A DNA stretch of 64,000 nt from Halohasta salina. Lineage in GTDB: Archaea; Halobacteriota; Halobacteria; Halobacteriales; Haloferacaceae. Positions within the stretch are counted from its first letter, which is position 1, and each line of letters opens with the position of its first letter. Below, one piece after another: positions 19,055 to 25,924 of the stretch. Below the pieces are notes generated by a model. The model did no database searches and was not told the DNA's origin. It was given only the letters and a program-made list of their open reading frames with translations. The translations under genes were made by a program, and so were the position numbers. The DNA is taken from positions 1 to 64,000 of the forward strand of contig NZ_JAMZIE010000001.1 in assembly GCF_024178165.1 (NCBI RefSeq), written 5' to 3'.

Positions 19055-20992
19055 CTACCGCTGTTGATCCTGACCGCCGTCGGTCGTCACGGGGGTTTTC
19101 CCACCTGCTTCGGCGGCCGTTCGATCCGTTCTCGCAGTAGTCGTGGTCTCGAAACTGGCAGCCTCGTCGTGAAGTTCTGTAGCCCGTTCCGCGAGCTGTT
19201 GTACGCTTTCTGCGACTTCCGCGAGCGTCGCCGCCTGCTCTTCGGTCGCTGCCGAGACGGCTGCCGCGTCGGTAGCCGTCTGTTCGCTCAGTGTCAGTGC
19301 CTCGTTGGCCATTGCTGCCACCTCTTCGGACGATGCTGCCTGATCGTCGGTGGCACCGGATATCTCGGCGATGCCGCTTTCGGCCTCGGATACCGTATCG
19401 GCAATCTCGTCGAAGATCTCGATCGTCTCGTCGATAGTCGAGGCCCCCTCGGCGACTTGGGTAGTCATCTCCTCGATACTGGTTACGGTCTCGTCGGTGA
19501 TCGATTGGGCCTCCGTGATCTGCTGTTCGATCTCGTCGGTCGCCGTCGAGGCCTCCTCGGCCAGTGATTTCACTTCGTCGGCAACGACCGAGAACCCTGC
19601 GCCGGCCTCACCAGCCCGTGCCGCCTCGATCGATGCATTGAGTGCGAGCAGGTTGGTCTGGTCGGCGATCTCGTCGATCATGTTCACGATGTTGCCGATT
19701 TCAACCATCTTCTGATCGAGCGCGTCGACCTGTTCGGCTACCTCACGTGCCTGCACTTCGATCGTATCTACCTGTGCCGTTGCCTCCGCAGCGTACTCCC
19801 GGCCAGTATCGCTCCGCGCAACCGCCGTGGTTGCCGTTGCCGACACTTCCTCCGAGGAGGACGCGATTTCTTCGATCGTAGCCGACATGTTGCTCATCTC
19901 GTCGGCCACGCTTCCCAGCTGCTCGGTCTGTGTGTCGGCACGCTGTGATACGTCCTCGACCGATCGAGCGACGTCCTCGCCCGCCTGCTCGATCTCACTG
20001 ACGCTCACTGTCGCGTCTTCGCTCGCTTCCGAGACTTCGACGGCAAACGATTGGATCTCAACGATCGTCTCCTCCCATTCGTCGACCATCTCGTTGAACG
20101 AGTGTGCGATCTCCGCCATCGCCTCGTTGTCGACGTCCTCGTCGAGTCGTTGTGTCAGGTCGCCGTCGGCGCAGGCAGCAATGACACTGCCGTACGAGTC
20201 GGCCAGTTGGGTGTTGAGTTCCGCCATCCGTTCGCGTTGTTTTTCGACCTGTCGGCGTTGTTTTTCGGCTTCTTGACGCTGTTTTTCGGCCCTCGTGCTC
20301 TCCCTTTCGATGTCGTCTTTGGCTTGCTGCACCTCCGCGAGTTGGGCTTCGACCTCGTTGCGTGCGACCGCCAACGACTGCCAATTAATCAGGATCGCCA
20401 CCGCAAGCATGCTGACGAACACAGCGTGTACCCCGCCCCAGACAACAGGATTCGACATCGCTGCGGGGTGGTTGTACACGGTAAACCATTCGATGAGGCC
20501 GAACACACTGTGTTGTGTTGCGACGTAGCCGATGGCGACCCCGAACGGAACCCAGTCCTCGTACAGCGCAACGACACCCACACCGACGAAATAGAGGAAG
20601 TGTGCTTCGATGAAGCCGCCGGTGAAGTACGCTAACACCGCAGCGGTCGTCATGAATGCGAGCGAAGCAAGCGAGGTTCGTACCTTCCGCGGGAACACCG
20701 GGACAACGGCTGCACCGAGGAGCACTGCGACGATCCCAACCCCGACCACGGAGTGCACCAGCGGGATCGCGGGGAGTTCCGCCCCGGTCACCGACTCGAC
20801 TCCGGTAAGACGACTGATCGCGAAAATAATTGGCAGTAGGAGGGCAGTGACCGTGAGCACGACTCGATGTCGCCTCTCGAAGGCGCTGTCCGAGATCCGA
20901 CTCCCGTCCGGGATGTTGGAAACGAACTGGCGTATCTTCACGCCAAAATCACTATTATTATTGAAATTCACATGGACATGAAATGAGCCCAT
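19055..20992 (-). CDS. Membrane methyl-accepting chemoreceptor (Htr type)
   Basis: This protein has 645 residues from the ATG at 20992; a GTG at 20941 is an alternative start. Its N-terminal module has about six membrane helices (residues about 40-205) with [20 protein letters not shown] and a His in the [14 protein letters not shown] helix. A long coiled coil follows (about 210-270), then a HAMP-like segment ([24 protein letters not shown]). The signalling tip has the hallmark [20 protein letters not shown]. Methylation helices surround it, and the tail has no visible pentapeptide. It would feed a CheA/CheW pathway. There is no large extracellular domain, so the membrane module is probably the sensor. 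Confidence 0.93.
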
Positions 20993-21018
20993 GAGCTTAA
21001 CTCTATGGCATGTATGGG

Positions 21019-21071
21019 AAAATATCACAAGTCATTTTTGTAATTTGTTCAATTAGAATAAAATATCACAA
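21019..21071 (-). promoter_or_regulatory. Two 12-bp direct repeats before the chemoreceptor gene
   Basis: AAAATATCACAA occurs at 21019-21030 and again at 21060-21071, exactly 41 bp apart, in an AT-rich stretch upstream of the chemoreceptor start. This spacing is close to four helical turns, which suits an operator for a dimeric regulator. No bound protein can be named. Confidence 0.45.
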
Positions 21072-21273: not shown

Positions 21274-22098
21274 TCAGGAGAGTTTGCCGAGGGCCTCGAA
21301 GAAATCCGCCGCCGGCCCGGCCAGTCGCACCGGCGGCTCGGTCCGTGAGACGGTGATCTCGCGGGGCACGTCGAGTTCGTGCGGTCGACGCCCGTCGCTG
21401 ACGACGACGATGTGGTCGGCGTCGTCGACCCGGACGGTGATCTCGCAGTCGCCGTCGACGACCAGCGGCGGCATCGCCTCGGTGCCGGCCATCTCGGTGA
21501 CGATCAGGCCGTCGATCGAGGGGTGGACCAGCGGCCCGCCCTCGCTGAGGTTGTAGGCCGAACTCCCCGTCGGCGTGGCCATCAGGATGCCGTCGGCGTG
21601 GCCCGCCGTGTAGTCCGAGCCGTCGACGTCGACGTCGAACGTCGCGCCGCCGCCGTGGCCCCGCCGACCCGTGACGACGATCTCGTTGACCGCCGGGACG
21701 CTCTCGAAGCCGTCGCTTTCGGCGGTGAGCCGCGGGGCCTCCCGAATCTCCGCGTTGTCGGCCGCTATCGCGCCGACCTCCTCGCGGACGGCGTCGACGG
21801 CCCCCTCCGGCCGGACGGCGTTCAGAAAGCCGACCTCGCCGAGGTTGATCCCGAGGATGGGCGTCCCGCCGGCTCCACGGGCGGCGAACAGGAAGGTGCC
21901 GTCGCCGCCGATCGAGACGACGAGGTCGTAGGCGTCGAACCCCGCGACGCTCGCAGCGGCTGCGGGGTCGCCGATCGCGGCCGCGGTCGACTCGTCGAAC
22001 CAGCAGCCGACGCCGTCCTCGCCGAGGGCCGCCCGGAGTTCGGCCGCCAGCGCCGCCGCCCGGCTGTTGTTCCGCTGTGCAACGATTCCGACCTCCAT
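21274..22098 (-). CDS. nadK: NAD(+) kinase
   Basis: This 274-residue protein carries the NAD kinase signature GGDGT (64-68, in [16 protein letters not shown]). It also has the NEI(V) motif ([11 protein letters not shown]) and the glycine-rich [19 protein letters not shown] loop. The enzyme phosphorylates NAD to NADP using ATP or polyphosphate. The start at 22098 ([10 protein letters not shown]) is the beginning of the conserved fold; the open frame runs 22 codons further up without conservation. The gene is divergent from the KaiC-like ATPase, with about 170 bp between starts. Confidence 0.95.
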
Positions 22099-22269: not shown

Positions 22270-23811
22270 ATGAGCGGCGACTGGTTCGAGGAGGCCCTCG
22301 AAGATATCGACGAGGACGCCGACGGTGAGCCGGTCGACCGCGATCCCGACGAGTCGTCGATCAAGGACGCCTTCGACGTCGATTCCGACACCGACGCGGA
22401 CGCAGCTACCGACAGCGAGGACGAGACCGGCCACACGGCCGCCGACGCTCCGGCGTCGCCCGACGAGTTCGACGCCGACACCGACCGCTCGGAGGCGACG
22501 GGGTCGGTCGATCCGTTCGGGTTTGATGCCGACGACGCGGACCGATCGACCGAGACGGACGACACGGATCGATCCGGCGAGCCGGCCGATCCCGACGCGG
22601 ACTCGACCGACCCCTTCGGCTTCGGGTCCGGGAATGGAGACGACGCGGGGCCGGCGGGCAACGGTGCCGGCGAGGGGGACCGCCCCGAGCCGTCGCCGGC
22701 CCAGTCGGCCGAAGAGTTCGGATTCAGCCTCGACGACGGGGCCTCGACCGATGGGTCGACAGTCGACGCGCCGACCACCGACACGCCGACCGCCGACACG
22801 CCGACCACCGACGCGCCGACCGCCGACACGCCAACCACTGACGCGCCGACCACCGACACGCCAACCACCGACGCGCCGACACCCGAGTCCGATGGACCGG
22901 CCGCCGGCGGGTCGACGCCCGACGCCGTCTCGGAACCCGGCGCCGACACCGGCGGCGCGGACGACCCCTTCGGCTTCGGCACCAGCGCCAGCCAGTCGGT
23001 CGGCGGTGGCGGCGATCAGCCCGACGATGACTTCGGCTTCGGCGGGTTCGGCGGCGGTGGCGGTGGCGGCGGCCCGGCCCCCGAGGAGTTCGACGACGAG
23101 GAGTTCGACTCCGATATCGACCGGATCGACCTCGGGATCGACGGCCTCGACGAGATGATCCTCGGCGGCGTCCCCGAGCGGTCGCTGATCGGTATCATCG
23201 GCGGGGCCGGGACCGGCAAGACGACGTTCGGGCTCCAGTTTCTGAACGAAGCGCTCGAAAACGGCGAGCGCGCGGTCTTCATTACGCTTGAACAGACCGA
23301 AGAGGCCGTCTTGTCGACCGCCGAGGAGAAGGGGTGGCCGTTCCGCGAGTACGCCGACTCCGGCCAGTTGGCGGTGGTCGTCCTCGATCCCGTCGAGATG
23401 GCAAACAGTCTCGCCAGCATTCGGGGCGACATCTCCCGGCTGATCCGGGAGTTCGGGGCCTCGCGGCTCGTGTTGGACTCCGTGTCGCTGCTGGAGATGA
23501 TGTACGACCACCCGGCCAAGCGCCGCAGCGAGATCTTCGATTTCACCCGGTCGCTGAAGGACGCCGGCGTGACGACGCTGTTGACCTCCGAGGCCAGCGA
23601 GGACTCCTCACACGCCTCCCGGTACGGCGCGGTCGAGTACCTCACCGACGCCGTCTTCGTCCTGCGGTACGTCCGGACCTCGAACTTCGAGGAGACCCGG
23701 CTGGCCATCGAGATCCAGAAGATCCGGGACGCCAACCACTCCCGAGCCACCAAGCCCTACGACCTGACCGACGAGGGGATGAGCGTCCACCGACAGGCCA
23801 ACATCTTCTAA
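22270..23811 (+). CDS. KaiC/RadA-like ATPase with long acidic repeat-containing N-terminus
   Basis: This 513-residue protein has two parts. Residues 1-280 are acidic and disordered, with several DPFGF-type short motifs (for example DPFGFDADD, DPFGFGSG, DPFGFGTS) and eight DxPTx pentapeptides at 166-205. Residues 285-513 are a single KaiC-like RecA-fold domain. It contains LGIDGLDEMILGGVPERS, the Walker A GGAGTGKTT (311-319), the Walker-B-like strand LVLD403 and Glu residues after FITLE. Single-domain archaeal KaiC homologues act as ATP-driven signalling switches, not as clocks. The gene is convergent with the membrane-protein/pseudokinase pair and shares a stop overlap. A functional link with that pair is inferred from position. 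Confidence 0.85.
   Translation: MSGDWFEEALEDIDEDADGEPVDRDPDESSIKDAFDVDSDTDADAATDSEDETGHTAADAPASPDEFDADTDRSEATGSVDPFGFDADDADRSTETDDTDRSGEPADPDADSTDPFGFGSGNGDDAGPAGNGAGEGDRPEPSPAQSAEEFGFSLDDGASTDGSTVDAPTTDTPTADTPTTDAPTADTPTTDAPTTDTPTTDAPTPESDGPAAGGSTPDAVSEPGADTGGADDPFGFGTSASQSVGGGGDQPDDDFGFGGFGGGGGGGGPAPEEFDDEEFDSDIDRIDLGIDGLDEMILGGVPERSLIGIIGGAGTGKTTFGLQFLNEALENGERAVFITLEQTEEAVLSTAEEKGWPFREYADSGQLAVVVLDPVEMANSLASIRGDISRLIREFGASRLVLDSVSLLEMMYDHPAKRRSEIFDFTRSLKDAGVTTLLTSEASEDSSHASRYGAVEYLTDAVFVLRYVRTSNFEETRLAIEIQKIRDANHSRATKPYDLTDEGMSVHRQANIF
22765..22884 (+). repeat. Eight 15-bp repeats in the KaiC-like gene
   Basis: The unit gac(a/g)cgcc(g/a)acc(a/g)cc occurs eight times with small variations and encodes DAPTT/DTPTA pentapeptides. 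All copies keep the reading frame. The Thr/Pro-rich stretch would be extended and could be O-glycosylated or act as a linker. Confidence 0.9.
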
Positions 23812-24560
23812 ACAGTCGTGTCGGCGACGTTCTGTTTGAGCCGTGTGGTCAGCACCAGCAGGAACGTGACGCTCATCACCGTCAGCACGACTGCCAGCGA
23901 CTCGACGATCGCCGGCTGGACGCCGACGACAACGCCGACCTCGACCGCACTCGCCCCGCCGGCGCTCAGGAGAACGGCGATAATGTAAGTCAGCATCGTA
24001 TCGAGGACCGTCCGGGTCGACATCGCCGCTCCCCTGATTCGGGTGGCAAACGAGACGCCGTAGGCGGTAAACCCGATGCTCGCGGCCAACTGGACGACGA
24101 GGCTGACGTCGATCAATCCGAGCAGGATGATCGCCATGAACTGCAGGAAGGCGACGAACAACAGCCCTGCCTCGATGTACCGGATGTACTCGATCGACAC
24201 CGGCAGCGACGTGGTCCGGTCGCCGGTGTGCTGTGGGGATTCGAAGTACAGCTCCCGCATCGCCAGCGCGAGGAAGATAATGAAAAACAGCTGACAGAGC
24301 CGTCGGAGCGCGCCGAGGAAGCCGATATTGGCGCTTCCGACGTCGGCGGCGGCCAACACCTCGCCGGTGCCCGTGATCGCATACAGCCCGCCGGCGATCC
24401 CCGCCAGAATCACGTACCCCCACATCTCCGAGTGGATCGTCCGTCGACGGGCGTTCTGGGCGGTGTAGTAAGCCAGACTGGCCGAGGCGACGCCCAACAG
24501 CAGGTAGGTCGTCAGTCGGGTGACGACCACCGTCCCCGTGGGATCCTCCAGCAGCGTCAC
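23808..24560 (-). CDS. Multi-pass (about seven-helix) membrane protein, unknown function
   Basis: This 250-residue protein starts with a GTG that overlaps the TGA of the pseudokinase gene (GTGA, 24557-24560), so translation is probably coupled. About seven hydrophobic helices are visible (for example LTTYLLLGVASASLAYYTAQ, LCQLFFIIFLALAMREL, LLFVAFLQFMAIILLGLIDV, LTYIIAVLLSAGGASAVEV, VLTVMSVTFLLVLTTRL). Charged loops contain RRRTIHSEMWG and RELYFESPQHTG. No retinal-binding Lys pattern or transporter motif is evident. I do not recognise the family. Coupling to a pseudokinase and its position facing a KaiC-like ATPase suggest a membrane sensor or scaffold. Confidence 0.75.
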   Translation of the reverse strand: MTLLEDPTGTVVVTRLTTYLLLGVASASLAYYTAQNARRRTIHSEMWGYVILAGIAGGLYAITGTGEVLAAADVGSANIGFLGALRRLCQLFFIIFLALAMRELYFESPQHTGDRTTSLPVSIEYIRYIEAGLLFVAFLQFMAIILLGLIDVSLVVQLAASIGFTAYGVSFATRIRGAAMSTRTVLDTMLTYIIAVLLSAGGASAVEVGVVVGVQPAIVESLAVVLTVMSVTFLLVLTTRLKQNVADTTV

Positions 24561-25924
24561 GCCGACCCCCTCCCGAGGGCGCGTCTGAGCTCGGTCTGGA
24601 AGTCCCGCACCGTGTCGTACCGATAGAGCTTGGACTTCCGCAGGGCCTTCGCGAGCACCGTGTCGACGGCTTCGGGCAGGTCGTCGGCGAACTGGCTGGC
24701 CGGCGGCGGCTGCTCGGTGGCAGCCTTGCGGAGGACGATTCCGGGCTGGTCCTCGAACGGGAGCCGGCCGGCCAACAGTTCGTAGACGATCAACCCGAGG
24801 TGGTAGATGTCGGTCGCGGCGTCGATGCCGCCGTACTGCTCGGGGGCAGCCTGCTCGGGGGCGGCGTAGCGCGGCGGCACGCCCATTGGCAGCGCCGTCA
24901 ACTGACACAGCAACCGGGAGATCCCCCAGTTGCTCACCTTGGGGTAGGCCCACGCGCCGTCCTCGTAGGTCCGGCTGAAGATCACGTTTCGCGGGGTGAG
25001 TCCGCTGTGGATCACGCCCGCCCCGTGGGCGTGACAGACCGCGTCGACGACCCGGTCGGCGATCCAGCGGGCCTCCCGTCGGGAGAGCGACCCGAGCCGC
25101 TCGCTGAGCCGTCGGCCCTCCTGATACTCGACGACGAACCATGGGCGGGGGATCGTCCCGTGGGCGACCACCGGGACGATCGCGTCGTGGCCGTCGATCG
25201 ACTGCCACTCGTCGAGCGTCTCGGTGAACTCCGCGTCGAACGCCGACGGCGCGGGGTGCCGCAGCTGTTTGAGCAGCGCCGTATGCGTCGCGGTATCGGT
25301 CTCGTAGGTCACCTGCCAGAGCTTGACGTGGCTGCCGGCCCCTTCGGTGGCGACCGGCTCGAAGGCTCCCCGTCTGACGTCGACCGCCGGCGGCGTCGGC
25401 GGTGGCTCTCGCGGCGGATGGCCGCGCTGTGGCTCCTCGCCGGTGGTCGGCGTCTCGGTCGACTCCGACGAGGGGGCGACTGCGCCCAGTCCTTCGTACT
25501 CGGTGGCCGCCCCGGCGGTCATGGTGACGTTCCCCTCGCCGGAGGGTTCGAACCGTTCGAACGCCGAGATAATCCGTTTTTCTGCCCCGTCGTCGTCGAG
25601 TTCGAACTCCTCGATGGCCTCTCTGACCAGCTCCGGATACTCCGATTCAACGTAGCCAAGCGCCCGGATAATCTCTCCGTGGCGCGATTCGGGCTCGCTC
25701 TCTAGCAGCGATGCCAGCGCTCGCACGGAGCCGGCGACCGCCTCGGGGGTGACCGAGACGACGAGCCCGAGTGCCCACGAGGCACTCAGCCGCACCGTCT
25801 GGTCACGGCTCTCGAAGAGGTCGAGCATCCGAGAGACCTCCTCGGTACCGAAAGACCCCGGCTCGACTATCGCTCGGCGAAGGATCGTCTCCGCGGTCTG
25901 CTGGTCGGCCCCCGATACATCCAT
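24557..25924 (-). CDS. HEAT-like repeat protein fused to a pseudokinase domain
   Basis: This 455-residue protein has a helical N-terminal region (1-125) of HEAT-like repeats (MLDLFESRDQTVRLSASWALGL, GEIIRALGYVESEYPELVREA). A Pro-rich linker (140-185) follows, then a protein-kinase-like domain (188-450). Several kinase features remain: K219 in the VAIK position, N313, the APE motif (A355-P-E357) and D372 in DIYHLG. The HRDLKP loop, however, reads H306-S-G-L-T-P, losing the catalytic Asp and Lys. The DFG motif reads N332-W-G. It is therefore probably a pseudokinase acting as a scaffold or ligand-binding switch. It is translationally coupled to the downstream membrane protein. Confidence 0.85.
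   Translation of the reverse strand: MDVSGADQQTAETILRRAIVEPGSFGTEEVSRMLDLFESRDQTVRLSASWALGLVVSVTPEAVAGSVRALASLLESEPESRHGEIIRALGYVESEYPELVREAIEEFELDDDGAEKRIISAFERFEPSGEGNVTMTAGAATEYEGLGAVAPSSESTETPTTGEEPQRGHPPREPPPTPPAVDVRRGAFEPVATEGAGSHVKLWQVTYETDTATHTALLKQLRHPAPSAFDAEFTETLDEWQSIDGHDAIVPVVAHGTIPRPWFVVEYQEGRRLSERLGSLSRREARWIADRVVDAVCHAHGAGVIHSGLTPRNVIFSRTYEDGAWAYPKVSNWGISRLLCQLTALPMGVPPRYAAPEQAAPEQYGGIDAATDIYHLGLIVYELLAGRLPFEDQPGIVLRKAATEQPPPASQFADDLPEAVDTVLAKALRKSKLYRYDTVRDFQTELRRALGRGSA

Follow-up and report, generated by a model that had tools for sequence, protein, structure and literature searches.

The bacterial pseudokinases MviN and EssB/YukC act with or in membrane proteins, and the review of bacterial pseudokinase families that describes them mentions archaea once in its text (PMC12599244). 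In MviN (ActPs3), the degraded kinase domain and the membrane protein it works with are fused in a single polypeptide. Among active enzymes the nearest comparison is with the PknB/Stk1 Ser/Thr kinases. For seven-helix membrane proteins, the systems to be compared are GPCR-like receptors, microbial rhodopsins and the HisKA_7TM (PF16927) N-terminal sensor domains, which are common in haloarchaeal genomes as parts of histidine kinases. Haloarchaea also have a described KaiC-like gene, cirB of Haloferax volcanii, which has a divergent NAD kinase gene as its neighbour; a cirB deletion mutant is viable, and the other cir genes are expressed arrhythmically in it (PMC3941300).

Here we examined a window of 64,000 nucleotides from the haloarchaeon Halohasta salina (contig NZ_JAMZIE010000001.1, positions 1 to 64,000). 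A KaiC-like ATPase gene (22270..23811, + strand, 513 aa) faces two genes on the - strand, one for a pseudokinase with a HEAT-like N-terminal region (24557..25924, 455 aa) and one for a seven-helix membrane protein with a predicted GPCR-like bundle (23808..24560, 250 aa). The stop codon of the pseudokinase and the start codon of the membrane protein overlap in a GTGA (24557..24560, - strand), an arrangement suggestive of translational coupling, and the ATPase and membrane-protein genes, on opposite strands, end in a shared CTAA (23808..23811). A preliminary description of the locus had read this arrangement and both overlaps correctly, and had further joined the three proteins into one signalling unit of membrane sensor, pseudokinase adaptor and ATPase output. 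Like MviN, the - strand genes associate a degraded kinase domain with a membrane protein, here known from genes; unlike MviN they are two separate genes, and the archaeal pseudokinase has a HEAT-like N terminus and retains the APE motif and the αF Asp. A pseudokinase scaffold with a membrane partner is the known kind; what appears to be new here is the GPCR-like seven-helix partner, and its occurrence in archaea. We found no description of this pseudokinase family or of the pair in the open-access literature searched.

The pseudokinase is composed of a helical HEAT-like region (residues 3-124), a disordered Pro-rich linker (residues ~125-180) and a kinase-fold domain (residues ~183-455) that matches the Pfam Pkinase family PF00069 with an E-value of 1.5e-17. 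In the AlphaFold2 model (pLDDT 87.7) the N-terminal region is helical, the linker disordered and the remaining domain a kinase fold. Comparison with Stk1/PknB gave a Z-score of 28.6 and an rmsd of 2.4 over 253 residues at 24% identity. The HEAT-like label of the preliminary description is founded on the predicted all-helical region together with a sub-threshold Pfam HEAT_EZ match (E 0.037). Each of the motif residues listed earlier was found in place: K219, H306, G308, N313, N332-W-G, A355-P-E and D372. In the window copy HRD has become HSG, DFG has become NWG and the αC Glu is Thr, so that Gly and Asn stand at the positions of the HRD and DFG aspartates. Although the protein shares the protein-kinase fold with PknB/Stk1, it lacks the catalytic Asp, the αC Glu, the DFG Asp and the PASTA domains, and its membrane helices are in a separate protein.

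To describe the family we scored these positions in 63 kinase domains that are paired with a membrane-protein gene. The HRD catalytic Asp is kept in 0/63; the position is occupied by Gly in 44 copies, Ala in 14, Cys in 2, Ser in 2 and Thr in 1. The DFG Asp is variable (25/63), and the αC Glu is kept in 3/63. Homologues retaining HRD and DFG, which the preliminary description had named as evidence against itself, are thus not what the paired family contains. K219 and N313, which it had singled out as retained, are present in the window copy but are not features of the family: the β3 Lys is kept in 8/63 copies and the HRD-loop Asn in 13/63. By contrast, all 63 retain the HRD His and Arg435, and among the copies tabulated for these motifs the αF Asp is present in all and APE in nearly all. 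Judged from these residues, the kinase domain is predicted to be catalytically dead throughout the paired family. Of 39 copies whose fetched stretch contains no membrane-protein gene, 24 keep the HRD Asp; the others include unpaired dead copies from family f4 as well as copies of paired loci that were fetched with short flanks. In a maximum-likelihood tree, a branch with support of 97/84 separates all the paired kinase copies from the Asp-bearing haloarchaeal domains, with which three dead solo copies are placed. The tree is unrooted, and is compatible with a single loss of the HRD Asp. Family f4 also contains a second clade of apparently dead kinases (L208, L209, L210, L213 and L175), with no membrane-protein gene within the stretches read.

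The membrane protein belongs to no Pfam family. As expected from its description as seven-helix-like, AlphaFold2 predicts seven helices (pLDDT 90.6, pTM 0.88). The best solved matches among those listed were MRGPRX1 (Z 18.2, rmsd 3.9 over 223 residues), LYCHOS (Z 18.0) and Frizzled-7 (Z 17.8), all above the Z of ~13 under which, according to the tool's own note, helical bundles may match by common arrangement only. Foldseek searches with the model returned weak E-values, the best being 2.3e-3. None of 13 family members matched a GPCR family in Pfam, and no convincing transporter or enzyme family was found for them either. The modelled protein and GPCRs therefore appear to share an arrangement but no sequence similarity in Pfam; homology is not proven, and seven-helix bundles can converge without common ancestry. 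Basic residues are located in loops 1, 3 and 5 and at the C terminus, with none in loops 2, 4 and 6, and by the positive-inside rule the protein is therefore predicted to be oriented N-out/C-in, as are GPCR-like receptors. Microbial rhodopsins have the same bundle and orientation. We rejected a microbial rhodopsin, as helix 7 lacks the retinal-binding Lys at its middle: of 66 family members, 1 has a Lys anywhere within positions 218-239. No microbial-rhodopsin structure was among the 50 structure matches listed, which we do not count as evidence. An origin from HisKA_7TM was also rejected, the hhalign probability being 0.8% with no profile similarity; unlike those sensors, the membrane protein has no fused kinase.

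Surveying 391 good-quality genomes of the haloarchaeal class, we obtained 134 matches to the membrane-protein profile in 126 genomes. A pseudokinase match lies at most 2.5 kb from the membrane-protein match, our definition of a pair, in 74/391 genomes from five families (f1, f4, f10, f12 and f17). In 74/74 pairs the pseudokinase gene is upstream and on the same strand. In 44 of the 63 loci examined, a membrane-gene start codon overlaps the stop of the pseudokinase gene within 20 bases, and in 54 a start overlaps that stop or follows it by at most 60 bases; in genus g44 (family f17) most copies have a spacer of several hundred bases. A narrower profile scan of contigs returned 13 named loci, all haloarchaeal, with homologues of the membrane protein in Halorubrum and Natronomonas strains. 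Both genes are under purifying selection (dN/dS 0.12-0.29). Across 43 genomes, pseudokinase and membrane-protein distances are correlated after KaiC distances have been removed (partial r 0.56, permutation p 0.0005); linked genes that were transferred together could also give such a correlation, which is supportive only. Together these observations strongly support the pseudokinase and seven-helix protein as a conserved two-gene module of haloarchaea. Family f7 includes 37 genomes that have the membrane protein and no pseudokinase detected at the thresholds used, and some f4 members carry unpaired, catalytically dead kinase copies; each half can therefore exist alone. In one f7 locus (L177:3602-5622) a multicopper-oxidase-domain gene lies just upstream of the unpaired membrane-protein homologue on the same strand, and in another (L179:2931-5010) the upstream same-strand neighbour falls in the similarity cluster of that gene.

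Other genes recur near the pair in family f4. In 16/28 f4 loci, from six genera, the pair has an MCP/HAMP transducer gene nearby, which is divergent and upstream in 15 of them (L131, L141, L148, L152, L161 and others). An SDR gene and a GDPD gene, each present in 13 of the 28 loci, are about as persistent. Since these metabolic neighbours recur nearly as often, we rejected a chemotaxis transducer as partner of the pair; the proximity of the MCP/HAMP gene may be plain synteny, and it is a lead at most.

The ATPase has a single KaiC domain, as the preliminary description stated, at residues 288-513. The acidic region of about 280 residues described there as a tail is present, but is N-terminal to this domain. 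The protein has an N-terminal DWFEEAL peptide, the acidic linker contains five [DE]xFGF-type motifs, and the DxPTx run of the linker is encoded by a 15-bp tandem repeat of ~8 copies (22757..22880, + strand). The protein scores 291.8 bits against the TIGR03880 (KaiC_arch_3) model over positions 1-224/224, above the curated cut-off of 249.45. TIGR03880 is found in 315/391 genomes, with one copy per listed genome. A divergent NAD kinase gene adjoins the ATPase gene in the window (21274-22098, - strand), as does a homologue in 24/30 relatives' loci as fetched. H. volcanii also has a TIGR03880 match, and together with the synteny this indicates that the ATPase is probably CirB, although its N-terminal acidic linker is longer and carries a lineage-specific tandem repeat. 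It is an already known, independent gene that is near-universal in haloarchaea. A short DWFExAL-type N-terminal peptide occurs at 31/38 KaiC/CirB loci read (some genomes being counted twice), ahead of an acidic linker 70-308 residues long; 17 of these 31 homologues carry FGF motifs, and the window copy (22270-23110) has five. The peptide and linker resemble a flexibly tethered interaction peptide. Between carB and the NAD kinase gene, the window encodes a methyl-accepting transducer (19055-21028; MCPsignal E 4.9e-41) that is missing at the corresponding place in two other genomes of the genus (G001 and G002).

Is the ATPase a third component of the module? A unit of membrane sensor, pseudokinase adaptor and KaiC output is favoured by the window itself, where the ATPase gene directly adjoins the pair and overlaps it at the stop codons; the ATPase and membrane-protein genes also touch in Halohasta litorea (G003), and lie within ~2 kb of each other in G001 and G002. 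Gene order elsewhere tells against it. The pair and KaiC were both located in 55 genomes. They lie no more than 20 kb apart in 3 of these, all from the genus of the window, and KaiC is elsewhere in the genome in the other 52. KaiC is also far commoner than the pair (315 versus 74 of 391 genomes), and its usual neighbour is the NAD kinase gene. The three-part unit therefore fails, and we consider it highly improbable. There is no conserved triad: of the earlier proposal, the link between membrane protein and pseudokinase survives as a conserved pair, and the inclusion of the ATPase does not. The independence of the genes in most relatives, which was to count against the proposal, holds for the ATPase and does not hold for the pair. 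Even within the genus, an acyl-CoA dehydrogenase gene sits between KaiC and the membrane-protein gene in G001 and G002. No match to it at E 1e-60 is present in the genome of the window or in H. litorea. Its best matches in three other genomes (G004, G011 and G031; 75% identity) are convergent to the membrane-protein gene, with KaiC on a different contig. The simplest reading would be that the pair and the dehydrogenase gene arrived together beside KaiC in Halohasta, and that later loss of the dehydrogenase gene brought the genes into contact. Within the genus the pair proteins (69-84% identity, dN/dS 0.12-0.29) are less conserved than the KaiC domain (97-98% identity, dN/dS ~0.05).

We propose that the two-gene operon is the unit, and this is probably correct as a whole. 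The seven-helix protein would act in the membrane as sensor or anchor. Its C terminus and basic loops would face the cytoplasm, and translational coupling would keep synthesis of the pseudokinase in step with it. The pseudokinase would dock onto the cytoplasmic face of its partner and serve as a conformational scaffold without phosphoryl transfer, and its HEAT-like arm would make the output contact. KaiC/CirB would be independent, its gene having been placed alongside the pair through rearrangement and loss of one intervening gene. The conserved pairing and order, the absence of the catalytic Asp from every paired copy, the two fold predictions and the lack of KaiC linkage are computed results; the physical contact, sensing, scaffold mode and output of the pair are inferred. 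The pseudokinase could instead regulate the seven-helix protein as a transporter or as a lipid or redox membrane enzyme. The MviN pseudokinase domain is a precedent (PMC12599244), no ligand-binding motif was identified in the seven-helix family, and the multicopper-oxidase-domain gene of L177 and its counterpart in L179 accompany unpaired homologues. Against this, the protein is a single 250-aa domain with a receptor-like arrangement in the model, and matches no transporter or enzyme family convincingly; we regard such a role as unlikely. It is also quite unlikely that the kinase-like protein, rather than being a pure scaffold, still binds nucleotide or carries out a non-canonical transfer, either AMPylation-like or divalent-independent. 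The window copy does keep K219, N313 and a Gly-containing loop, and the DFG Asp persists in 25 of the 63 paired copies; the scarcity of the β3 Lys, the HRD-loop Asn and the αC Glu in those copies argues otherwise.

Under the two-gene proposal, a haloarchaeal seven-helix protein of GPCR fold might signal via a dedicated dead-kinase adaptor in place of a G protein, a histidine kinase or a methyl-accepting transducer, a suggestion we make only tentatively. The tempting linkage of KaiC to the pair is false, and was corrected by the survey of gene order. What the survey leaves is a conserved archaeal pseudokinase family that spans five families of haloarchaea and has a tightly linked membrane partner, so that a kinase-fold scaffold can be tested in microbes amenable to genetics. 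If confirmed experimentally, a GPCR-like seven-helix arrangement beside a kinase-fold protein outside eukaryotes would bear on how seven-helix sensors can be coupled to the inside of the cell without G proteins.
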